64,000 bases of DNA, taken from NCBI RefSeq assembly GCF_008065375.1, contig NZ_VJYI01000005.1, positions 496,001-560,000 on the forward strand. Direction: 5' to 3'. How positions within the stretch are numbered: the first letter of the stretch is position 1; each line of letters begins with the position of its first letter. The notes beneath the pieces are model-generated. The model was not told the DNA's origin and searched no databases. It saw nothing but the letters and a program-made list of their open reading frames with translations. The position numbers and the translations under genes were made by a program. The DNA is from Nonomuraea sp. SYSU D8015. Its GTDB lineage: Bacteria; Actinomycetota; Actinomycetes; Streptosporangiales; Streptosporangiaceae. Shown here piece by piece: positions 2,875 through 15,947 of this stretch.

Positions 2875-3066
2875 CTAGCGGCCGGCCAGGTGATTGACCG
2901 CCAGGGTGACGAAGAGAAGGGCGATCAGGAGCAGGGCGATGAGGGCGGGGGACAGCCCGGCGAAGCCGTGGCTGTGCATCCGCTCCCTGTTGGCGCGGCA
3001 GAGGGGGCAGCGTCCCTCGATCACGGGGTGGGCGCACTGCGCACATACGAGGTGTTCACAACTCAT
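2875..3066 (-). CDS. Small zinc-ribbon membrane protein
   Basis: 63 residues. The N-terminus has CxxC pairs at C8/C11 and C20/C23, plus C3, which looks like a small zinc ribbon. Residues about 38-60 (LSPALIALLLIALLFVTLAV) are one membrane helix, leaving the zinc-binding part probably cytoplasmic. It sits on the minus strand between prfB and ftsE. A TAGACT -10 box (3082-3077 on the minus strand) lies 10 bp before the ATG. I do not recognise the family; no partner is evident. Confidence 0.7.
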   Translation of the reverse strand: MSCEHLVCAQCAHPVIEGRCPLCRANRERMHSHGFAGLSPALIALLLIALLFVTLAVNHLAGR

Positions 3067-3076
3067 GACAGCCCCA

Positions 3077-3249
3077 AGTCTAGCCGCACAATCGTTTTGT
3101 TTCCGTTATGGACGTTCCATGCCAGTCTTCCCCCTAGACTGTGCTCTGGCCAATCGGAACGTCGATCATCAGTAAAGCCGATGTCCCCGGTCGGCCAGCG
3201 GCGGGAAGTGGGCATGTGCCACCCTCGCTTCCGTCCTGACCCCTAGACT
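3077..3249. promoter_or_regulatory. Divergent promoter region with three TAGACT -10 boxes
   Basis: TAGACT occurs at 3082-3077 (minus strand, toward the zinc-ribbon gene) and at 3135-3140 and 3244-3249 (plus strand, toward ftsE). Both plus-strand copies share the context CCCCTAGACTG, suggesting tandem ftsE promoters. The distal one would give a leader of about 120 nt and the proximal one a leader of about 13 nt. Confidence 0.45.
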
Positions 3250-3268: not shown

Positions 3269-3958
3269 GTGATCCATTTCGATAATGTCACCAAGGTCTA
3301 CGCGAACCAGAACCGGCCCGCTCTCGACCACGTATCCGTAGACGTGGACAAGGGTGAGTTCGTGTTCCTCGTCGGCCCTTCGGGGTCAGGCAAGTCCACG
3401 TTCCTGCGTCTGATCCTCAAGGAGGAGCGGCCCAATTCCGGCGCGATCCACGTCGCGGGGAAGGACCTGGCCCGCCTCTCCAACTTCAAGGTGCCTCACC
3501 TGCGCCGCCGCATCGGCTGCGTGTTCCAGGACTTCAGGCTGCTCCCGAACAAGAACGTCTACGAGAACGTGGCGTTCGCCCTCGAGGTCATCGGCAAGCC
3601 CCGGCGGTTCATCCGCAAGGTGGTGCCCGAGGTCATCGAGCTGGTCGGCCTGGAAGGCAAGGCCCACCGCATGCCCGACGAGCTGTCCGGCGGCGAGCAG
3701 CAACGCGTCGCCATGGCCCGCGCCTTCGTCAACCGGCCGATGATCCTGCTGGCCGACGAGCCCACGGGCAACATCGACCCCGCGACGAGCATCGGCATCA
3801 TGAAGGTGCTCGACCGCATCAACAGGACTGGCACCACGGTCGTCATGGCCACGCACGACGCGGCCATCGTCGACTCCATGCGCAAGCGTGTCGTGGAGCT
3901 GGAGGACGGCAAGATCGTCCGTGACCAGTCGCGTGGCGTTTACGGCCAGGCGTACTGA
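3269..3958 (+). CDS. ftsE: Cell-division ABC ATPase FtsE
   Basis: 229 residues, full length. FtsE is the cytoplasmic ATPase that powers FtsX to activate peptidoglycan hydrolases at the septum. Walker [10 protein letters not shown] is at residues 36-44, the ABC signature LSGGEQQR at 139-146, and Walker B ILLADEP at 159-165, with the following H-loop THD. The GTG at 3269 gives the family N-terminus ([11 protein letters not shown]); two nearer upstream starts are out of frame. No clear Shine-Dalgarno is present. ftsX follows after 20 bp, so the two form one transcription unit. Confidence 0.96.
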
Positions 3959-3978: not shown

Positions 3979-4887
3979 ATGCGGGCGAACTTCATCTTCT
4001 CCGAGGTCTGGATCGGCCTCCGTCGCAACCTGACCATGACGATCGCGGTGGTCATCACCGTGGCGGTCGGAATGGCGATGCTGGGCGTCGGCTTGATGAT
4101 CAACGCCCAAGTCGGCTTGATGAAGGGCTACTGGGGCGACAAGATCGAGGTCTCGGTCTTCCTGTGCAGCAAGGGATCGGCCATCCCGGCCTGCAACGGC
4201 AAGGCGATCACCCAGGCCCAGATCAAGGCGCTGGAGACCCACATCGACGGGGTCCCGGGGGTCAAGGAAGTGTTCTTCGAGAACCAGGCCACGGCGTGGC
4301 AGAACTTCCAGGAGGCCTACGCCTCCAACAAGGCCCTCCTGACCGCCACCAAGGTCGAGGACATGCCCCAGTCGTTCCGGATCAAGGTGGACGACCCCAA
4401 CAACTACCAGTCCGTCATCCAGGCCATCCAGGGCCAGCCGGGGGTCTCCCAGGTGACCGACCAGAAGCAGCTGGTCGGCCCGTTCTTCGAGATGCTCGAC
4501 AACCTCGCCATTTACGCCACCGGCGTCGCGATCGTCCTGGTGCTGGCGGCGGCCCTGCTGATCGGCAACACGGTCCGGCTGTCGGCGTTCAACCGGCGCA
4601 GGGAGACGGGCATCATGCGCCTGGTCGGCGCGTCGAACCTGTACATCCAGCTGCCCTTCATCATGGAAGGCGTGATCGCCGGCCTGATCGGCGGCGTCCT
4701 CGCGGCGGTCATCCTGATCGTCACGAAGGTCATGCTGTTCGAGGAGCTCGGCCGCTTCTTCGGTGGCGCGACCGCGCAGCTCGGCTGGGACGCCGTGGCT
4801 CAGACGATCACGTTCACCATGATCATCGGTGTGGTCATCTGTATCCTGGCCTCGTTCGTCACGCTTCGCCGTTACCTCAGGGTGTAG
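3979..4887 (+). CDS. ftsX: Cell-division permease FtsX
   Basis: 302 residues. FtsX partners FtsE and transmits ATP-driven movement to extracellular peptidoglycan hydrolases. Topology: cytoplasmic N-terminus, membrane helix 1 at about 20-42, a large extracellular domain to about residue 170, then three helices (NLAIYATGVAIVLVLAAALLI, the IMEGVIAGLIGGV region, and TFTMIIGVVICILASF). The extracellular loop carries two cysteines (C63, C72) that could form a disulfide. The MRANFIFSEVWIGLRRN start is typical of actinobacterial FtsX. Confidence 0.95.
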   Translation: MRANFIFSEVWIGLRRNLTMTIAVVITVAVGMAMLGVGLMINAQVGLMKGYWGDKIEVSVFLCSKGSAIPACNGKAITQAQIKALETHIDGVPGVKEVFFENQATAWQNFQEAYASNKALLTATKVEDMPQSFRIKVDDPNNYQSVIQAIQGQPGVSQVTDQKQLVGPFFEMLDNLAIYATGVAIVLVLAAALLIGNTVRLSAFNRRRETGIMRLVGASNLYIQLPFIMEGVIAGLIGGVLAAVILIVTKVMLFEELGRFFGGATAQLGWDAVAQTITFTMIIGVVICILASFVTLRRYLRV

Positions 4888-4934: not shown

Positions 4935-5402
4935 ATGCCGCGTGAGACCGGGCGGAAGGTCATCGCCCAGAACAAACGTGCCCGGCACGACTACCACGTC
5001 GAAGACACCTTCGAGGCGGGGCTCGTGCTGCAGGGCACCGAGGTGAAGTCGCTACGCGAGGGCCGCGCCTCGCTCGTCGACGGCTACGCCACCATCGACG
5101 GCAACGAAGCGTGGCTGCTCAACGTGCACATTCCCGAATACGCGCAGGGCACGTGGACCAACCACGCCGCCCGCCGCAAGCGGAAGCTGCTGCTGCACCG
5201 CAAGGAGATCGACAAGCTCGCCGCCAAGACCAAGGAGGGCGGGCTCACGATCGTGCCGCTGGTGCTCTACTTCAAGGACGGCCGGGCCAAGATCGAGATC
5301 GGCCTCGCCCGCGGTAAGAAAGACTGGGACAAGCGGCAGTCGCTGGCGGAGCAGCAGGCCAAACGGGAGATGGCCCGAGCCCTGCGCCACCGCAACAGAT
5401 GA
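4935..5402 (+). CDS. smpB: tmRNA-binding protein SmpB
   Basis: 155 residues. SmpB binds the tRNA-like part of tmRNA and carries it into stalled ribosomes for trans-translation. The OB-fold core is visible ([38 protein letters not shown] split over residues 14-50), followed by NVHIPEY and the basic C-terminal tail ([28 protein letters not shown]) that mimics mRNA in the channel. It has its own -10 box and no Shine-Dalgarno. The tmRNA gene is 2.2 kb downstream, separated by the degenerate transpeptidase gene. Confidence 0.96.
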
Positions 5403-5409
5403 GAGCGGC

Positions 5410-7263
5410 ATGAGACGGCTGAGCCGCACCCTCTCCGCGACCGTCACGCTGGCGGTGGCGTGCACGACGCTGACCGGCTGCTTCGAGGAGTCGTCGCCGC
5501 ATGACGCCGTACGCGACTTCCTCGTGGGCTGGCAGACCGGAGACTACGACCTGGCCGCGGGGCGCACCGACGGTGACCAGGCGGCGGTGCGCAAGGCGTT
5601 GTCCGACGCCACGGTAGAGCTCGACGCGGCCTCGTTCCGCTTCAAGATCAAGAAGCTCACGGTCAACGGCGACCAGTCCCAGGCCGACTTCCACGCCGAG
5701 GTCGACCTGGGCGAGAACAACCCGCTGTGGCAGTACGACGGGATGTTGCCGCTCCACCTGGTCAACGGCATGTGGAAGGTGCGCTGGTCGCCTTCCGTGC
5801 TGCATCCGCAGCTCAAGGAGGGGCAGCGGTTCGCGGTCGACACCGAGCCCATCGAGCGCCAGCCGGTGACCGACCGGACCGGCCACCCGCTGCAGACCGA
5901 CACGATGCTCTACGTCGCCGGCGTCTACCCCAACCAGCTGGGCGACCGGGCGGAGGAGGTCGTGGCCAAGCTCTCCGAGATCACCGGATACGCCCAGGAC
6001 CGGCTGCTCAGCCGCGTCAGGTCGTCGCCGCCGGACAAGTTCGTGCCGCTGGTGACGTTCGGGCGCTCCCTCTACCAGAAGATGAGGCCCAAGCCCGACG
6101 CGATCTCGGGAATCAAGGTAAATCCGGAGCCTCAGCCGGTCGGCCCCGCCGCGCCCCGGCAGATCGTCGGCACCGTCAGCGCGCTCACCCCGGACGACGA
6201 GCAGAAGCTCGGCGCGCGGGCCGGCGACTCGATCGGCAAGAGTGGCCTGCAACGTGCCTACCAGGACTATCTGACCGGCTCCACCGAGACCAAGGTGATC
6301 ACGCTCGACCTCAAGACCGGCAAGGAGGCCGCGACGCTGAAAGAGTGGCTCGGCCGGCAGAACGTCCCGGTGAGGACCACGATCGACAGCGGCATCCAGG
6401 CGGCGGCCGAGCGGGCGGTGGCCGACACCTCCACGAGCGCGCTGGTGGCGGTCGACCGCAACTCCGGCGAGATCCGCGCGGTGGCCACCAAGGGCGACAT
6501 GCACCAGGAGAAGGACGCGCTGGCCGGCAAATACCCGGCGGGCACGGCGTTCTCGATCGTGGCCGCGGACGCGCTGATCAAGGCCAAGGTGAGCCCGAAA
6601 CAGCGACTCGACTGCCCCGAGGAGCGCACGGTCGGCGGCGCCAAGTTCGTGCAGACCGGCCAGTCCGGCGGCACCACGTCGTCCGGCACGTTCCAGGAGC
6701 ACTTCGCCAAGGGCTGCGTCACCGCGCTCGCCTCCCTCGCCCGCCGCGTCAAGGCCGACGACCTGAAGAAGAGCGCCGAGGCGTTCGGGGTGGGGCTGCC
6801 TTGGGGGCTGCCGCTGAAGTCCTTCAGTGGCTCGTTCCCCGCCCTGTCGGGCGACGCCGACAAGGCCAGGGCCATCGCCGGCCAGAACGTCGAGGTGAGC
6901 CCGCTGGGCATGGCGCTGGTGGCCGCGGCGGTGTCCTCGGGCACCTGGCGCCCGCCCGTGCTCGTCACCGACCCGAAGTCGCCCGATCCCTCGGCCGAGA
7001 CCGTGCCGGTCACCCAGCCCGCCCCCGTACCCGTCGACCAGCAGGTGCGCGCGGCGCTGGTCCCGATGATGCGGACCGGTGCGGCCGGTACGCCCGCCCA
7101 GGCGGGCAAGGGCACGGTTTACGGCGTGCGGGCGAATGCGGGCAGCCAGTTGACCTGGTGGGTCGGCTGGCAGGGGGACGTGGCCATCGCGGTGCTGTCG
7201 AAGAACTACGACGCCTCGGCGGTGGCGGGCGGCTTCTTCGAGGCGCTTCGTACCTCATCGTGA
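5410..7263 (+). CDS. Lipoprotein with degenerate penicillin-binding transpeptidase fold
   Basis: 617 residues. Lipobox LTGC (Cys near residue 25) marks a lipoprotein. Next come an NTF2-like/MecA N-terminal domain (about 30-140), a dimerisation region, and a transpeptidase-type domain (about 310-615), recognisable from TTIDSGIQAAAERAV, ALVAVDRNSGEIRAVA and SPLGMALVAAAVSSG. All three catalytic motifs are lost. The SxxK box reads TAFS (379-382) after KYPAG. The SxN box reads GCV (435-437). The KTG box aligns with VRA (573-575) before WWVGW. It should therefore be unable to acylate and probably acts as a scaffold or regulator. It follows smpB by 7 bp. Confidence 0.85.
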   Translation: MRRLSRTLSATVTLAVACTTLTGCFEESSPHDAVRDFLVGWQTGDYDLAAGRTDGDQAAVRKALSDATVELDAASFRFKIKKLTVNGDQSQADFHAEVDLGENNPLWQYDGMLPLHLVNGMWKVRWSPSVLHPQLKEGQRFAVDTEPIERQPVTDRTGHPLQTDTMLYVAGVYPNQLGDRAEEVVAKLSEITGYAQDRLLSRVRSSPPDKFVPLVTFGRSLYQKMRPKPDAISGIKVNPEPQPVGPAAPRQIVGTVSALTPDDEQKLGARAGDSIGKSGLQRAYQDYLTGSTETKVITLDLKTGKEAATLKEWLGRQNVPVRTTIDSGIQAAAERAVADTSTSALVAVDRNSGEIRAVATKGDMHQEKDALAGKYPAGTAFSIVAADALIKAKVSPKQRLDCPEERTVGGAKFVQTGQSGGTTSSGTFQEHFAKGCVTALASLARRVKADDLKKSAEAFGVGLPWGLPLKSFSGSFPALSGDADKARAIAGQNVEVSPLGMALVAAAVSSGTWRPPVLVTDPKSPDPSAETVPVTQPAPVPVDQQVRAALVPMMRTGAAGTPAQAGKGTVYGVRANAGSQLTWWVGWQGDVAIAVLSKNYDASAVAGGFFEALRTSS

Positions 7264-7556: not shown

Positions 7557-7940
7557 GGGGGTGACTGGCTTCGACTTTGACCTTGCAAGCCAGGTGAAGC
7601 GGGCCGAGGACTGCGGACATAACCTCGTTAATCCTGTGACCGCAAACAATAAGTGCCAATTCCAAGAGCACTGTGGCGGCCACGGACACCCTGGCCCTCG
7701 CTGCCTAAGCAGCGAAACCACTGTCAGCCCGGGAGTGCCTTCGGCCCGGTGTCTGGCATCGCTAGAAGGCTCAACCGTTCGACCCGGCCACGGGGAAGAT
7801 CGGGAAATCAAACAGTGGCTGAGCCCGTCGGCGACTCGCCTGCGTGATCGCCGGGGCTGAGAAAAGCACAGCAGGCTGCGCCCGGAGAAGCCCTGACTTG
7901 GGGTTGAAGGACGCGGGTTCGATTCCCGCCACCTCCACCA
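7557..7940 (+). ncRNA. ssrA: Transfer-messenger RNA (tmRNA)
   Basis: 384 nt. The 5' end GGGGGTG (7557-7563) pairs with CACCTCC (7930-7936), followed by encoded ACCA. The third acceptor pair is G-U (7559/7934), the identity element for alanyl-tRNA synthetase. The T-arm GCGGGTTCGATTCCCGC is at about 7914-7930. The 5' D-like segment GACTGGCTTCGACTTT matches the tmRNA consensus. The tag reading frame starts at a GCC resume codon (7655) and encodes ANSKSTVAATDTLALAA, stopping at TAA 7706-7708. The ALAA end is the protease degron. A one-piece tmRNA acts with SmpB to rescue stalled ribosomes. Confidence 0.97.
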
Positions 7941-9025: not shown

Positions 9026-11923
9026 GTGGCGGTTGCCTGGGACGACATAGACAAACTGACCGGCGCCCACGAGAGGTTCTACGACGGGCGCGAGGTCGAG
9101 GGAAACGTCAGGAGCCCCATTCTGACGTCCTGGCAGCGCTGCCGGTTGCTCGGCCTGGTCCCCGACCAGTTGGAGATTCCCTACCAGGAGGACCTGGACC
9201 TGCACGGCCGGCTCATCCACGCGGCCACGCCCGTGCTCGACAAGATGGAGACCCAACTCAGCGGAGAACGCGTGAGCGTGATCCTCTGCGACGACAAGGC
9301 GAGGGTGCTCCAACGCCGGGGCGGCGACCCCGAGCTCAACAGGAGTCTCGACGCCGTCTGCCTCGCCGTCGGATTCGCCTTCGCCGAGCAGATCGCCGGC
9401 ACCAACGGCATCGGCACGACGCTGGCGGACAGAAGGCCCAGCTACGTCTTCGGCAGCGAGCATTTCGCCGCCTGCATGCACCCCTTCGCCTGCGCTGGCG
9501 CGCCCATCCGCGATCCGCTGAGCGGGCAGGTCGAGGGGATCCTCGATCTCACCTGCCGGCGGTCCGACGCGGACCCGGCGATGATGAAGGTCGTCCGCGA
9601 CGCCGCCCGCGACATCGAGCGGCGCCTGCTGGAGCAGACCACACAACGGGAGCGGGACCTGCTCCGGGCCTTCATGCGCAGCCAGCGCGCCGCCCGGCTG
9701 CCCGGCGAGCCGCCCAGCGTCGGGTCCGAAGGAGCGCTCCCCTCGATCGACGACGTCCTGGGTCGCGCCGACCAGGCCCTGCTGCGGGCGAAGGCCGCGG
9801 AGCTGATCTCCTCCCCGCACCGGTTCATGGCCCAGGTGGAGCTCTTCAACGGCCAGATCGCCACTCTCACCTGCCGGTCGGTCGCCGGCCTCTCGGGAGA
9901 GGCCGGCATAGCGGTCGAGGCGAGCCTCCCGTACGACGCCGGCCGCGCGGACGAGGCCGGGCGCGTACGCCGCATGTCGGTCACGGCCCCCCTGGCGGTG
10001 GCGCCCTCCTCGGAGACCCTGATCATCCCGGCCCCGCGGAAGGTGGCCAAGCCGCCGGAGGCGGCCCCTGAGCCCACATCCGCACCGGTGCCCGCGGTCC
10101 CGTTCGTGTGCGGGGAGACGGCCGCTCCGGAACCCGGGACGGCCGACGGCCAGGACGCCGCCGCGGCGACCGGCGGCGGCGAGGGATGGCTGCTCCTCGT
10201 CGGTGAGCTGGGCGTGGGACAGCTCGCCCTGCGGGCACGGCAGCGCCTGGAGTTGCTGTACGACGCCAGCGTCCGCATCGGCACCACCCTCGATGTGACC
10301 CGTACAGCGGAAGAGCTGGCCGACGTGGTCGTCCCACGGTTCGCCGACTTCGTCAGCGTCGACCTGGTGGATGCCGTTCTGCGGGGGGACGAGGCGGCCC
10401 TCGAAACCGGGGAGTTCCGCCGGGTGGCGTTGGGCGCGGTCCTCGGGTCGTCCCACCTGACCGAAGTGGGGGAATCGGTCAGGTTCCTCCCGTCCACCCC
10501 GCAGGGCCAGTGCCTCGCCACCCGGGAGGCCGTGCTGGAGCCGGATCTGGCGCAGGCGCCGGGGTGGAAGGCCATCGACCCCGCGCGCACTGAGAAGATC
10601 CTCAGGTTCGGGATCCGCTCCCTCATCGCGGTGCCCATGTACGCCCGCGGCGCGACCCTGGGCGTGGTCAGCTTCTACCGCTGGCAGCAGCGCGCGTTCG
10701 AAGAGGACGACCTCCGCCTCGCCGAGGAGATGGTCGGCCGCGCAGCGCTGTCCATCGACAACGCCCGCCGCTTCACCCGCGAGCACAACATGGCGCTCGC
10801 CCTGCAGCGCAGCCTGCTTCCCCGCGGACTGCCCTCGCAGAACGCGGTCGAGGTCGCGCACCGCTACCTGCCGGCGTACGGCGGGGTGAGCGGCGACTGG
10901 TACGACGTCATCCCGCTGTCCGGCGCCCGGGTGGCGCTGGCGGTCGGCGACGTCGTCGGGCACGGCCTGCACGCCGCCGCCACGATGGGCCGCCTGCGTA
11001 CCGCGCTGCAGAACTTCGCCGTACTCGACCTGCCCGCGGACGACCTGCTCACGTGCCTCGACGAGCTCGTCGACCGGCTCGACGCCGACCAGTGCGGCGG
11101 CGACGGGATCGTGGGCGCCACCTGCCTGTACGCGGTGTACGACCCGGTGTCCAGGCGCTGCACCCTGGCCCGCGCCGGTCACCCGCTGCCCGCCCTCGTG
11201 CTCCCGGACGGAACCGTGGAGTTCCCCGACGTGCCGGCGGGTCCGCCGCTGGGCCTCGGAGGTCTGCCCTTCGAGACGGTCGACCTGGAGATCCCCGAGG
11301 GCAGCGAGCTCGTCCTCTACACGGACGGTCTCATCGAGGAGCGCAGCCGCGACATCGACGTGGGGCTCTCCCTGCTGCGGCGCGCCCTGACGCACCCGGG
11401 CCGCCCGCCAGAGGAGACGTGCCAGGCGGTCGTCGAGGCCCTGCTGCCCGGCCGTCCCAAGGACGACGTGGCTCTGCTGGTCGCCCGCATGCACGCGCTG
11501 GACCCCGACCGCGTGGCCACCTGGGAGCTGTCCGCCGACCCGGCGAACGTCTCCACCGTGCGCGGCGCGGTGACGGAGCAGCTCGAGCGCTGGGGCCTGG
11601 ACGAGCTGTGCTTCACCACCGAGCTCGTGGTCAGCGAGCTGGTCACCAACGCGATCCGCTACGCGAGGGAGCCCATCGAGGTGCGCCTGCTCCGCGACTC
11701 CGCGCTCATCTGCGAGGTGTCCGACGGCAGCAGCACCTCGCCCCGGATGCGCCGCGCCGCGACCACCGACGAGGGCGGGCGCGGACTGTTCCTGGTCGCC
11801 CAGCTCGCCTCCCGCTGGGGCACCCGCTACACGGCCAGCGGCAAGGTCATCTGGACCGAACAGCACCTGCCTGCGAGTCCCATTCCGGATCACACGGAGA
11901 GGACTGGTGATCATGCAGCTTGA
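9026..11923 (+). CDS. GAF-PP2C-HATPase sensor phosphatase
   Basis: 965 residues. The N-terminal third resembles the sensor part of AcoR-type activators, with a GAF domain carrying the GTNGIGT signature near residue 125, but there is no sigma-54 AAA or Fis domain. A second GAF domain lies at about 405-590. A SpoIIE/RsbU-type PP2C phosphatase (about 600-830; GDWYDV, GDVVGHG, DGLIE) and an anti-sigma-type HATPase (about 835-960; N-box ELVVSELVTNAIRYA) follow. Such fusions act as sensor, phosphatase and kinase in partner-switching control of sigma factors. Its 3' end overlaps the dehydrogenase gene, so it probably senses the substrate or redox state for that operon (inference). The GTG start follows a GAGGGGGCGG stretch. 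Confidence 0.88.
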   Translation: MAVAWDDIDKLTGAHERFYDGREVEGNVRSPILTSWQRCRLLGLVPDQLEIPYQEDLDLHGRLIHAATPVLDKMETQLSGERVSVILCDDKARVLQRRGGDPELNRSLDAVCLAVGFAFAEQIAGTNGIGTTLADRRPSYVFGSEHFAACMHPFACAGAPIRDPLSGQVEGILDLTCRRSDADPAMMKVVRDAARDIERRLLEQTTQRERDLLRAFMRSQRAARLPGEPPSVGSEGALPSIDDVLGRADQALLRAKAAELISSPHRFMAQVELFNGQIATLTCRSVAGLSGEAGIAVEASLPYDAGRADEAGRVRRMSVTAPLAVAPSSETLIIPAPRKVAKPPEAAPEPTSAPVPAVPFVCGETAAPEPGTADGQDAAAATGGGEGWLLLVGELGVGQLALRARQRLELLYDASVRIGTTLDVTRTAEELADVVVPRFADFVSVDLVDAVLRGDEAALETGEFRRVALGAVLGSSHLTEVGESVRFLPSTPQGQCLATREAVLEPDLAQAPGWKAIDPARTEKILRFGIRSLIAVPMYARGATLGVVSFYRWQQRAFEEDDLRLAEEMVGRAALSIDNARRFTREHNMALALQRSLLPRGLPSQNAVEVAHRYLPAYGGVSGDWYDVIPLSGARVALAVGDVVGHGLHAAATMGRLRTALQNFAVLDLPADDLLTCLDELVDRLDADQCGGDGIVGATCLYAVYDPVSRRCTLARAGHPLPALVLPDGTVEFPDVPAGPPLGLGGLPFETVDLEIPEGSELVLYTDGLIEERSRDIDVGLSLLRRALTHPGRPPEETCQAVVEALLPGRPKDDVALLVARMHALDPDRVATWELSADPANVSTVRGAVTEQLERWGLDELCFTTELVVSELVTNAIRYAREPIEVRLLRDSALICEVSDGSSTSPRMRRAATTDEGGRGLFLVAQLASRWGTRYTASGKVIWTEQHLPASPIPDHTERTGDHAA

Positions 11924-13205
11924 CACACTCTTCAGGCCGTCGCCGGTCAAGGAGTTCACACCGCTGCCCAGGGCGCTGCTGGGGCCGGGAACGCACGAAC
12001 TCGTCGGCCCGGAGGCCAAGGCGCTGGGATTCAAACGGTCGCTGGTCGTCACCTCGGGCCTGCGTGGGACCGACATCGTCCAGCGGATCATCGACCAGGG
12101 GAAGTACCACGGTGTCGACTTCGTCGTCTACGACAAGGTCGAGTCCAATCCCAAGGACTACAACTGCATGGACGCCGCGGAGGCCTTCCGGGAGAACAAG
12201 TGCGACTCCTTCGTCTCCATCGGCGGCGGTTCCTCCCACGATGCCACCAAGGGCGCTCGGCTGTCCCTCGCGCACGACGGCCGCAGCATCAACGAGTTCG
12301 AGGGCTACCACAAGGCGGAGAATCCCGACAACCCGCCGCACATAGCGGTGAACACCACTGCCGGGACGGGCTCTGAGACCACGTCGTTGTTCGTCATCAC
12401 CGACACCACGACCGATCCCGACAATCCGCACAAGTACGCGGCCTTCGACCGCTCGGCGCGCGTGACGCTGGCCATCGACGACCCGGTGCTCTTCTACGAG
12501 TGCCCGATCGACTTCACCGCGCAGTGCGGAATCGACGTGCTCACGCACGCCTCCGAGGCGTACGTGTCACGGCTGGACTTCACGCCCGCGCTCGGCCAGG
12601 CCCTGCAGGCCGTGGATATCGCGGCGCAGTACCTGCGCACCGCCACCTGGGACGGCCGCAACCTGGCCGCCCGCGAGGCCATGATGTACGGCGAGTACAT
12701 CGCGGCGCAGGCGTTCAACTCCGGCGGGCTGGGCCTCGCCCACTCGATCTCGCACGCGGTCAGCGCCTACTACGACCTGCACCACGGGATCAACAACGCC
12801 GTGCTGCTGCCCAGGGTGTGGGCCTTCAACCTGCCGGTGGCCTACCGGCGCTTCGCCGACATCGCCCGCGCCATGGGTGTGGACACCACCGGCATGACCA
12901 CGGTGCGCGCGGCCGACGCCGCGGTGGAGGAGCTCGTCCGCCTGGTGCGCGACCTCGGCATGCCCGAGAAGCTCACCGACGTGAAGCAGGACACGTACTC
13001 CAAGAACCGGCTCGGGCAGGGCCCCACCGAGTTCTACCAGCGGTCGAGGGAGATCGTCGGGGACGAGGCCGACGTCGACCGCATCACCCGGCACACCCTC
13101 GGCGACTCCTGTGTCCCGACCAACCCCAAGGAGGCCACGTACGACACCGTCCGTCCGCTCGTCGAGCACTGCATGAACGGTGACCTGGACGACCTGCTCC
13201 TCTGA
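11913..13205 (+). CDS. mdo: NDMA-dependent methanol/alcohol dehydrogenase (iron-containing ADH family)
   Basis: 430 residues. Closely resembles the decameric nicotinoprotein methanol dehydrogenases of Amycolatopsis and Mycobacterium, which hold NADP(H) tightly and oxidise methanol or other primary alcohols; NDMA is the assay acceptor. Visible features: the dinucleotide loop GGGSSHD (104-110), KDYNCMDAAE, NTTAGTGSETT, and the metal-ligand region IDVLTHASEAYVS plus SISHAVSAYYDLHHGINNAVLLP. The ATG at 11913 has GGAGAGGA 9 bp upstream and is preferred over an in-frame GTG at 11907, which is too close to it. It overlaps the PP2C gene by 11 bp. The natural substrate is not decided by sequence. Confidence 0.88.
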   Translation: MQLDTLFRPSPVKEFTPLPRALLGPGTHELVGPEAKALGFKRSLVVTSGLRGTDIVQRIIDQGKYHGVDFVVYDKVESNPKDYNCMDAAEAFRENKCDSFVSIGGGSSHDATKGARLSLAHDGRSINEFEGYHKAENPDNPPHIAVNTTAGTGSETTSLFVITDTTTDPDNPHKYAAFDRSARVTLAIDDPVLFYECPIDFTAQCGIDVLTHASEAYVSRLDFTPALGQALQAVDIAAQYLRTATWDGRNLAAREAMMYGEYIAAQAFNSGGLGLAHSISHAVSAYYDLHHGINNAVLLPRVWAFNLPVAYRRFADIARAMGVDTTGMTTVRAADAAVEELVRLVRDLGMPEKLTDVKQDTYSKNRLGQGPTEFYQRSREIVGDEADVDRITRHTLGDSCVPTNPKEATYDTVRPLVEHCMNGDLDDLLL

Positions 13206-13214
13206 GGTGATGAC

Positions 13215-14411
13215 GTGACCGGCATTTCGCACCCCGTACCCGATGCGTTCGAGTCGGTCACGGATGTGATCGAGAAGTTGGCCGCCCACGGGTACATCGC
13301 CGATCGCCGGCTGGCCATCACCGTGTACCTGCTGTTCCGCCTGGGCAAGCCGGTCCTGCTGGAGGGCCCGGCCGGGGTCGGCAAGACGGAGCTGGCGAAG
13401 GTCCTGGCCGCGGCCACCGGACGCCGGCTGCTGCGCCTGCAGTGCTACGAAGGACAGGACGAGTCGAGGGCGCTGTACGAGTGGGACTACGGAAAGCAGC
13501 TCCTGTACACGCAGCTGCTGCGCGAGAAGATCAGCGAGATCGTCGCGGACGCACCCGACCTCGCCGCCGCCGTGGAGCGCATAGGCGATCAGGACGGCGT
13601 CTTCTTCTCCGACCGCTTCCTGTCCCCTCGGCCGGTCCTCGAGGCGATCCGCAGCCGCGAGCCGGCGGTGCTGCTCATCGACGAGATCGACCGCGCCGAC
13701 GAGGCGCTGGAGGCCGTGCTGCTGGAGTGCCTGGACGAGTACCAGGTCTCGGTGCCCGAGATCGGCACCTACGTCGCGGCGGTGCCGCCGTGCGTCGTGC
13801 TGACCTCGAACAACACCAGGGACTTGTCGGCCGCGCTCAAACGGCGGTGCCTGCACATGTTCCTGGACTACCCGGACGCCGAGCGGGAGCTGGAGATCGT
13901 GCGCTCCAAGCACACGGGGCTGCCCGACGCGCTGGCCGCACAGCTGGTCGGCGTGGTCCGCGAACTACGCGGCCTGCGGCTGCGGAAGAGCCCCGGGATC
14001 TCGGAGACGGTCGACTGGGCCCGTGCTCTGGCCGTGCTGGGGGCCGCGGAGCTGGACGCGCAACTGCTCATGGAAACCGCCAACGTGGTGCTGAAATACG
14101 AGCGCGACCTGAAACGGGCGCTCGAGGCGCTGCCCCACCTGGTCCCCGGGGGGCGGGCGGCGCCTGCAGAGGAGGGCGCCGCCCACGATCCGCGACGGGC
14201 CCCGTCACCGGCGCACACCCACGCCAACGGTCACACCCACGCCGACGAGCCGGACGGCCGCGCCGTGCGGGCGGCCATGGACCAGCTCGGCCGGCACGAG
14301 GTCGGTTACCGCCTGCCGTCGGGCCCGAGCGCGGCCGAGCCCCACCGCGACGGGCGGTCCGGCCAGGGACAGCGCGCGTTCTCCGCGGCCGTGCGCCGCC
14401 GGGCACGCTGA
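13215..14411 (+). CDS. MoxR-family AAA+ ATPase
   Basis: 398 residues. Walker A GPAGVGKT is at residues 51-58 and Walker B LLIDEID at about 153-159, with sensor 1 TSNNTR; the pattern is MoxR/CbbQ/NorQ type. MoxR ATPases pair with vWA proteins to insert cofactors or remodel metalloenzymes. The C-terminal extension (about 310-395) is His-rich (HTHANGHTHADE), unusual and suggestive of metal binding. It is 9 bp after the dehydrogenase, and the vWA partner follows at 25 bp. Inference: the pair activates or metallates the neighbouring dehydrogenase. Start GTG with GAGGTGAT upstream. Confidence 0.9.
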   Translation: MTGISHPVPDAFESVTDVIEKLAAHGYIADRRLAITVYLLFRLGKPVLLEGPAGVGKTELAKVLAAATGRRLLRLQCYEGQDESRALYEWDYGKQLLYTQLLREKISEIVADAPDLAAAVERIGDQDGVFFSDRFLSPRPVLEAIRSREPAVLLIDEIDRADEALEAVLLECLDEYQVSVPEIGTYVAAVPPCVVLTSNNTRDLSAALKRRCLHMFLDYPDAERELEIVRSKHTGLPDALAAQLVGVVRELRGLRLRKSPGISETVDWARALAVLGAAELDAQLLMETANVVLKYERDLKRALEALPHLVPGGRAAPAEEGAAHDPRRAPSPAHTHANGHTHADEPDGRAVRAAMDQLGRHEVGYRLPSGPSAAEPHRDGRSGQGQRAFSAAVRRRAR

Positions 14412-14435
14412 GCGGCTCGGGCACAGGAGCGTTCC

Positions 14436-15947
14436 ATGGAAGCGACCATCCACCGCTTCGTCCGGTTGCTGCGCCTGTCGGGCGTGCCGGTCTCGGTCTC
14501 GGAGACGATCGACGCGACGAGGGCGGCGGCGCAGCCGGGCATGCTGGGCGAGCGCGACACGCTGCGCGAAGCCCTGCGCATGACGCTGATCAAGGACCGG
14601 CGCTATGACGCGGTCTTCGACGAGCTGTTCACCGCGTTCTTCACCCTCACACCGCCGAGCCCCGCCGAGCAGGGGAACGGCCATCACCACGGGCACGACG
14701 ACCTGTCCGACACCGGCGCGGCCACGTCGTTCACGCTCTCCGAAGAGCCCTCGCACCTCCCGCAGCCCGGCCACAGCCACGGCCCGCCTCGCGACATTCG
14801 CGACTACTTCGACCCGCAGGACCTCGCCCAGCGCTACAACCCCCACCAGGAGGCCAGCAAGATCGACCTTTCTGCGCTGACCCAGGAGATCGTCCTCCCC
14901 CAGGACCGGCAGCGGTCCACCGCCGGCTCCACTTTCGTCGGCAGCGTCGAGCTGGCGGCCGAACGGCTGCACAACCCCGGAACGCCCGGCCGGCTCTCCC
15001 GCGGCGACCCCCTCCGCGCGGACACCGAGATGACCGTGGCGGGACCCGCGAACGGCCGATCCGCGGAGGAGTCGGACGGGCCGGAGCCCGCCACCCCGCG
15101 CGGCCGGGCCCAGGCGGCCGACGCCCTCGCCGAGCTGCTGCTGCGCCACCTCGCCAAGCTGGCCCAGCTCGCCGCCGCCGTCGAGTCGAGAGCCGTCGAG
15201 CGGGCGCGTACGGAGGCGGTGGACGAGCAGAGCCGCCGAGAGCTGGAGGCGTCGCTGCGCCGGCTGGCCCGCACGCTGTCCGGGGCGCTGACCGCCACTC
15301 GGCGCAACAGCCCCCGCGGCCGGGCGCACCCGGCCCGCACGATGCGGCAGAACATGCGTTACGACGCGGTGCCCTTCCGGCCGGTGACCACGACCCGGGC
15401 CGAGGACGCCCCCCGGCTCGTCGTCCTCGCCGACGTCTCACTCTCCGTACGAGCCAGCGCCCGCTTCACCCTGCACCTGGTGCACACCCTCCAGTCCCTG
15501 TTCGGGCAGGTCCGCTCGTTCGCCTTCGTCGACGAACCCCACGAGATCACCGAACTGTTCGCCGAGCATCCGCTGCAGCAGGTGGCCGACCTGGTGTTCG
15601 GCGCGGTCGGCGGGCTGCTCGACGTCGACGCCGACTCCGACTACGGCCGCACCTTCGAGCTGATGCTCGCGGAGCACCGCTCGGCGCTGACCAGGAAGAC
15701 GACCCTGCTGATGCTCGGGGACGGCCGGGGGAACGGCCACGATCCGAAGCTGGAGGCGTTCGAGGAGCTCACCAGGCGGGCGAGGCAGACCATCTGGCTC
15801 ACCCCGGAGCCCCGGTATTCATGGCGGCTCGGCAGCTGTGACCTGCCCGCATACGCCGAGCACTGCGACCAGATCCACGTGGTGCCGGATCTGGCGCGGC
15901 TCGAAGGCGTCGCACACCAGGTGGCGCAGCGGTTCACGGGAAGGTGA
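14436..15947 (+). CDS. CoxE-like vWA protein, MoxR partner
   Basis: 503 residues. The C-terminal half is a vWA domain with MIDAS motif DVSLS (D333, S335, S337) and the later TLLMLGDGRGNG and LTPEPRYSW segments typical of CoxE-type proteins. The N-terminal half is helical, with His-rich stretches GNGHHHGHDD and PGHSHG near residues 75-115. Such proteins recruit the MoxR ATPase to its target metalloenzyme. It is the last gene of the 9.0-15.9 kb operon, which ends at a strong hairpin. Confidence 0.85.
   Translation: MEATIHRFVRLLRLSGVPVSVSETIDATRAAAQPGMLGERDTLREALRMTLIKDRRYDAVFDELFTAFFTLTPPSPAEQGNGHHHGHDDLSDTGAATSFTLSEEPSHLPQPGHSHGPPRDIRDYFDPQDLAQRYNPHQEASKIDLSALTQEIVLPQDRQRSTAGSTFVGSVELAAERLHNPGTPGRLSRGDPLRADTEMTVAGPANGRSAEESDGPEPATPRGRAQAADALAELLLRHLAKLAQLAAAVESRAVERARTEAVDEQSRRELEASLRRLARTLSGALTATRRNSPRGRAHPARTMRQNMRYDAVPFRPVTTTRAEDAPRLVVLADVSLSVRASARFTLHLVHTLQSLFGQVRSFAFVDEPHEITELFAEHPLQQVADLVFGAVGGLLDVDADSDYGRTFELMLAEHRSALTRKTTLLMLGDGRGNGHDPKLEAFEELTRRARQTIWLTPEPRYSWRLGSCDLPAYAEHCDQIHVVPDLARLEGVAHQVAQRFTGR

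Follow-up and report, generated by a model that had tools for sequence, protein, structure and literature searches.

The gene at positions 5410–7263 of the window, that is, of the whole 64,000-nucleotide stretch of Nonomuraea sp. SYSU D8015 DNA that was analysed, encodes a predicted lipoprotein with the architecture of a class B penicillin-binding protein (PBP) in which the catalytic motifs SxxK, SxN and KTG are all missing. Judged from the sequences, it is almost certainly a pseudoenzyme, and the probable explanation is that it is a conserved one, a non-catalytic class B PBP of the MecA_N type that is kept for another job. That job would rather likely be to scaffold or regulate peptidoglycan synthesis. 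The gene and its parts are as follows:

5410–7263, forward strand: pseudo-transpeptidase lipoprotein gene, with the domains of a class B PBP but none of its catalytic motifs, 617 amino acids
5410–5481, forward strand: signal peptide and lipobox LTGC (residues 21–24), lipidation expected at Cys24 (inspection)
5494–5826, forward strand: MecA_N (NTF2-like) domain, which evolves more slowly than the rest of the protein (Pfam and divergence)
5854–6309, forward strand: PBP_dimer (pedestal) domain (Pfam)
6442–7176, forward strand: Transpeptidase domain, fold kept (Pfam, model, structure matches)
6544–6555, forward strand: SxxK site, TAFS (residues 379–382; alignment with active homologues)
6712–6720, forward strand: SxN site, GCV (residues 435–437; alignment with active homologues)
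7126–7134, forward strand: KTG site, VRA (residues 573–575; alignment with active homologues)

The domain assignments come from Pfam, which finds MecA_N at residues 29–139 (38.7 bits) and PBP_dimer at residues 149–300 (42.4 bits), both above the curated cut-offs, and Transpeptidase (PF00905) at residues 345–589 (57.6 bits against a cut-off of 22.1). This order of domains is that of the MecA_N-type class B PBPs, while no NCBIfam model scores above its cut-off for the protein. An earlier note on this DNA, made from the letters alone, had stated that the gene is free of stops and that the three motifs read TAFS, GCV and VRA. The open frame of 617 residues bears out the first statement, and the alignment with active homologues agrees with the second: the serine and lysine columns of SxxK correspond to T379 and S382, SxN to G435-C436-V437, and KTG to V573-R574-A575. 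The lipobox was read by eye and the protein is thus expected to be a bacterial lipoprotein; the lipobox cysteine is present in 88% of 122 orthologue rows and invariant in a nine-row alignment that includes three active homologues.

The note had also claimed that the fold is intact, and here Pfam, the predicted structure and the structure matches all point in the same direction. The AlphaFold2 model (nine sequences) has a mean pLDDT of 68.8 and a pTM of 0.63, with much of the transpeptidase (TP) domain at pLDDT 80–95 and lower values for the pedestal and for MecA_N, which is weak. The active-site helix (378–391) and the β-strands 570–577, 581–588 and 591–598 are present in the model. The top Foldseek match is Enterococcus faecium PBP5 (6mka, E 7.9e-27, TM 0.59), and VIA-align gives a Z of 36.9 over 332 residues (rmsd 3.0) to 4qjg_B, an Atopobium parvulum protein, in a run that mainly covers residues 138–617 and says little about the MecA_N part. 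According to the model, the transpeptidase fold is kept.

The same three-domain order is found in E. faecium PBP5, Bacillus subtilis PBP3 and Staphylococcus PBP2a. By sequence, PBP5 and its relatives are the best match in the PDB (residues 33–361 of the pseudo-transpeptidase), B. subtilis PBP3 and staphylococcal PBP2a are among the closest PDB proteins, and Mycobacterium tuberculosis PbpA matches residues 370–574. However, PBP5, PBP3 and PBP2a are transpeptidases that are acylated by penicillin, whereas the present protein lacks SxxK, SxN and KTG.

We now consider how widely the gene and its motif losses are distributed. The gene is present in all 36 host-genus genomes, at 62–100% identity, and at E ≤ 1e-60 in 248 of 250 host-family genomes, which are an even draw from a larger group. 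Named carriers include Nonomuraea fuscirosea, N. deserti, N. turkmeniaca and Sphaerisporangium fuscum. The two absences we read as assembly gaps and not as losses; in one genome (G113) the contig stops 195 bases past smpB, and in the other (G161) smpB was not found either. At least one copy was fetched for 67 of the 68 sampled host-family genera, the missing one (g77) being that of G113. From these, 122 distinct sequences were aligned and tallied (66 family genera, S. fuscum and the order-mate G036), and two more were read by eye, L191 and L189, the latter adding the 67th genus (g45). The motif tally is therefore one of 122 plus 2 orthologues, out of 248 host-family copies matched.

Lysine is absent from both of its catalytic columns in all 122 sequences: the SxxK column has Ser in 83, Thr in 27, Gly in 11 and Gln in one, and the KTG column has Val in 68, Gln in 33, Ile in 20 and Leu in one. 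Twelve different residues occupy the position of the SxxK nucleophile (Thr 65, Glu 14, Met 12, Ser 11, Gln 5, others 15), and in SxN the serine is found in 25 sequences and the asparagine in one, never both together. No row has a gap at any of these columns. The two sequences read by eye show the same losses, and intact motifs thus occur in none of the 124 orthologues, which answers the check on orthologues that the earlier note had proposed. The order-mate sequence L055 reads SVFQ and SCT, with the nucleophile serine still in place, and a K/R/H-[TS]-G string occurs near the KTG strand, off the aligned column, in 5 of the 122. All 122 rows begin by query residue 35, and 121 of them extend to residue 600 or beyond; an in-frame stop was flagged once in the matches to G124 and G248, and the G124 row is near full length. 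A sequencing error or a pseudogene is ruled out by these near full-length frames, and a strain-specific loss by the fact that the motif loss spans the whole clade.

Outside the clade, all three motifs are found in 22 of 24 unbroken homologues. One exception, L063 (G051:C1:4084040-4097617, with the copy at G051:C1:4090040-4091617), is a second MecA_N-type PBP copy that reads TAFK, SCN and TTG, a separate and partial motif loss; the other, L005 (also L072; G000:C6:310052-310687), is a transpeptidase-domain protein of the host genome with STFK but SCE and ETA. In the host-family genome G089 there is an additional, weaker match (L190, G089:C299:61-1833) at 32% identity with STFK, SCN and KTG intact, which from its sequence is probably a paralogue and not an orthologue of the clade.

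The origin of the clade was examined with a tree that covers 109 of the 148 rows and omits the motif columns (a quick IQ-TREE run with SH-aLRT support only and no inferred root). The 85 clade rows fall on one side of a single branch with SH-aLRT 100, which speaks against several independent losses inside the clade. The family f3 proteins, with motifs intact (L056–L058), and L059 and L060 are their nearest neighbours, joined at a support of 82. The f3 genes and L060 occupy the same place, after smpB; an intact STFK/SCN/KTG homologue follows smpB in all three f3 genomes and in G045, and the arrangement in the order-mates is ftsE-ftsX-smpB-pbp. These syntenic homologues (G037, G038 and G039, of the same order, and G045) are 33–35% identical to the pseudo-transpeptidase over most of its length but differ from it in having STFK, SCN and KTG intact. 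Since an intact homologue stands at the same locus in order-mates, the clade most likely descends from an active class B PBP in which catalysis was lost once, before the host family and G036 split. The clade would accordingly be one of pseudoenzymes in the usual meaning of the word, with the catalytic residues gone across all orthologues of an active ancestor.

It is important to point out that the constraint on this protein is inverted, having moved from the TP domain to the MecA_N domain. In ten host-genus genomes its mean identity is 70%, compared to 78% and 70% for two catalytic paralogues, and the distribution over the domains is very different. The identities in the pseudo-transpeptidase are 80% for MecA_N, 70% for the pedestal and 68% for the TP domain, while the corresponding values are 69, 77 and 82% for paralogue 1 and 56, 53 and 79% for paralogue 2. 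The ratio of TP to MecA_N divergence is 1.62 for the pseudo-transpeptidase (column bootstrap 1.27–2.21), 0.59 for paralogue 1 (0.47–0.75) and 0.42 for paralogue 2 (0.33–0.52 with nine genomes; the ratio is 0.48 with all ten), and the bootstrap range of the former does not overlap with those of the paralogues. In deeper sets matched for total identity the ratio is 1.13–1.31 in the clade compared to 0.68–0.75 in active homologues, with pairs that are non-independent and a top active bin of nine pairs. The column entropies, calculated for 81 thinned clade rows and 14 picked active rows, two sets that differ in depth and breadth, are 1.89 vs 1.34 for the TP domain and 1.60 vs 1.97 for MecA_N. For the β3 strand, which carries KTG, the values are 2.16 vs 0.72, and this strand is no longer conserved in the clade.

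The motifs are intact in all ten genomes for paralogue 1 and in nine of ten for paralogue 2. The odd copy of the latter (L176, G031:C1:1899947-1902906) reads STFT, ACD and KAG; it lies far from the usual place, its orthology is doubtful and it may be a different paralogue. A catalytic paralogue of the MecA_N type is located ca 27 kb upstream of the pseudo-transpeptidase on the same contig (G000:C5:474342-475307), and many host-genus genomes likewise show both on the same contig, about equally far apart. The host genome has 17 transpeptidase domains in total; a regular-expression survey of these missed the motifs in several class A and B proteins, and no count is drawn from it.

Taken with the retention of the gene, the shift of constraint between the two domains argues for a pseudoenzyme whose working surface is mainly MecA_N. 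That MecA_N is so highly constrained marks it as the probable main contact surface, and because the β3 strand varies freely, the pocket would no longer dock the stem peptide and the TP domain would probably be a structural platform. The scenario that we propose is the following. Catalysis would have been lost once, in the ancestor of the host family and one order-mate, and the protein retained thereafter. Anchored as a lipoprotein on the outer face of the membrane, it would be acylated neither by penicillin nor by the stem peptide and would act through binding, scaffolding or tuning active PBPs or the septal machinery. It is probably made from a transcript shared with smpB and ftsEX. That selection had favoured a non-catalytic role was already proposed in the earlier note, and the proposal gains from the complete absence of intact motifs in the 124 orthologues and from the lack of a conserved relocated Ser/Lys pair. 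Further support comes from the reading frames, which have stayed long and open, and from the constraint having shifted to MecA_N. Some observations speak against this explanation. Some orthologues retain single catalytic serines, that of SxxK in 11 and that of SxN in 25 of 122, and the faster evolution of the TP domain than in the paralogues fits a partial relaxation equally well as a new role.

An option that has to be weighed is that the protein is a peptidoglycan sensor, in which the dead pocket binds the stem peptide without reaction and signals via the other domains. Residues of the fold that line the pocket (G378, F381, C402, C436, T438, S497 and P498) do have low entropy in the clade, and the PDB contains an entry described as PBP2a whose allosteric site is occupied by a peptidoglycan analogue (3zg5). 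However, the substrate-docking β3 strand varies more than most other parts of the protein, and the SxxK and SxN columns, which a pocket that binds D-Ala-D-Ala should keep, are no longer conserved. This makes such a sensor unlikely, with the reservation that the counter-argument bears on binding in the pocket and not on binding through MecA_N.

We now turn to the neighbourhood of the gene, which bears on a second alternative. The relevant genes are:

3269–3958, forward strand: ftsE (Pfam ABC_tran; the name rests on the place before ftsX)
3979–4887, forward strand: ftsX (Pfam FtsX_ECD and FtsX)
4935–5402, forward strand: smpB (Pfam SmpB), directly upstream of the pseudo-transpeptidase
7557–7940, forward strand: ssrA (tmRNA; ARAGORN), downstream of the pseudo-transpeptidase

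The co-location with ftsEX that had been noticed is thus real, with ftsE, ftsX and smpB upstream on the same strand and only 7 bases between the end of smpB and the start codon of the pseudo-transpeptidase. Further upstream, also on this strand, is a peptide-chain-release-factor gene with PCRF and RF-1 domains, here called prfB. A promoter and terminator scan gave a single promoter-like site, at 3065–3092, where shuffled sequences average 0.4. In the clade, smpB is found upstream on the same strand in all 126 loci (29 + 97, with a few genomes counted twice), and it is preceded by ftsX in every locus where the retrieved sequence extends far enough upstream. The gap between smpB and the pseudo-transpeptidase, measured between tblastn matches, ranges from −1 to 1238 bases and is at most 150 in 109 of the 126 loci. 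In 11 loci, all from Nonomuraea, the host genus, the two matches overlap by one base, which suggests translational coupling to smpB. The tmRNA lies downstream in all 11 host-family loci scanned, farther away in L060, and it was not found at the four order-mate loci scanned (L055–L058). In L055 and several host-family genera an open reading frame of ca 400 amino acids stands between ftsX and smpB (L055, L099, L121, L123 and L124), a place that is vacant in the window; the one that was tested, from L121, encodes a Peptidase_S41 protein with a PDZ domain. Farther along the window, at 9026–15947, four genes stand in a row on the same strand, encoding a SpoIIE phosphatase (GAF and HATPase), an iron-containing alcohol dehydrogenase, an AAA ATPase and a CoxE-like VWA protein.

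This arrangement could be taken to mean that the protein is an FtsEX adaptor, linking the outer domain of FtsX to a cell-wall hydrolase or synthase, and the constant place after smpB, behind ftsX where visible, and the presence of FtsX_ECD would fit. But the intact homologue in f3 and G045 has the identical gene order, and because intact homologues share it, the ftsEX neighbourhood is no evidence for a new job specific to FtsEX. In addition, in some genera the Peptidase_S41 gene between ftsX and smpB is an equally close neighbour. We regard the adaptor as quite unlikely.

A further possibility is slow decay, that is, a redundant PBP that drifted into inactivity while chance, or translational coupling to smpB, preserved its frame. 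The genome does contain catalytic MecA_N-type paralogues, and constraint on the TP domain is weaker than in the two paralogues analysed. The pairwise dN/dS of the pseudo-transpeptidase has a median of 0.46 and a range of 0.20–0.95 (NG86, 43 sequences, 903 pairs), compared to 0.41 for ftsX (902 pairs) and 0.18 for smpB (898 pairs) at the same loci; NG86 is crude at high G+C and only the comparison between genes counts, by which the constraint on the gene falls somewhat short of that on ftsX. However, frames near full length persist in 122 sequences, from 66 family genera and the order-mate, after an apparently single and old loss, the gene is kept in 248 of 250 host-family genomes, and in the ten genomes MecA_N is 80% identical compared to 69% and 56% in the paralogues. 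Decay is hence strongly disfavoured by the conservation, and we hold it to be very improbable.

Finally, the TP domain was searched for other residues that could support catalysis. It contains no conserved lysine among the 122 orthologues, the best Lys column reaching 48%, and the best Arg column is R555 (87%); D326 is kept at 89%. The near-invariant polar residues are T323, T324, C402, C436, T438 and S497. All of them except T323, which is more conserved in the clade, are conserved in active homologues also, and the only near-invariant serine, S497 (99%), is invariant there too. The two cysteines, C402 and C436, are invariant in both the clade and the active homologues, which suggests a retained disulphide. 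We reject a relocated Ser/Lys pair, as there is no conserved lysine, and the displaced pair that the earlier note had named as evidence against its reading is not conserved among the orthologues; catalysis elsewhere in the protein appears unlikely from the alignment. The idea of a working enzyme whose catalytic residues have moved or been replaced, such as a hydrolase or an acyltransferase of another kind, could invoke the serine at the nucleophile column in 11 of 122, the near-invariant T323 (better conserved than in active homologues), T324, T438 and S497, and the well-kept R555 and D326, but with no Lys column above 48%, twelve different residues at the nucleophile column, and T324, C402, C436, T438 and S497 not being new, it is barely credible.

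Two systems from the literature can be compared with a conserved non-catalytic PBP. PBP-lipo of Mycobacterium abscessus (MAB_3167c) is described as a class B PBP and predicted lipoprotein that is used at the septum; it binds Bocillin FL and needs its catalytic serine, since the S364A variant fails to rescue (PMC9170245). By this description it resembles the pseudo-transpeptidase in being an actinobacterial class B lipoprotein, although it may not be an orthologue, and it differs in that its serine is essential and that it binds penicillin. In B. subtilis, catalytically inactive PBP 2B (S309A) is reported to sustain division provided that the activity comes from PBP 3, which is related to S. 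aureus PBP 2A (PMC5656894). As described, this is a divisome PBP with a structural role apart from catalysis, as proposed here; PBP 2B S309A is, however, a laboratory point mutant, whereas the pseudo-transpeptidase represents a natural family of pseudoenzymes. In the titles and opening parts of abstracts on inactive or pseudo-PBPs and on actinobacterial PBPs we recognised nothing on the clade, which may still have been published, and the passages seen of two reviews of actinobacterial PBPs held nothing on it. Ogawara is said to have published a comparative paper on actinobacterial PBPs in J. Antibiot.

Put more broadly, and tentatively, the clade may represent a natural, family-wide conversion of a penicillin-binding enzyme into a binding protein, over at least 67 genera in which hardly a member lacks it, with MecA_N at its core: a membrane-tethered regulator of the septal or spore wall that would not be acylated by β-lactams. 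If true, such an old, widely kept and naturally dead class B PBP would give direct access to the scaffold function of PBPs, with the catalytic paralogues of the same type in the same genomes as a matched control, and the inverted constraint singles out the domain to test first. It would also mean that annotation by Pfam alone, which makes the protein a penicillin-binding transpeptidase, sets the count of PBP targets in these actinobacteria one too high.
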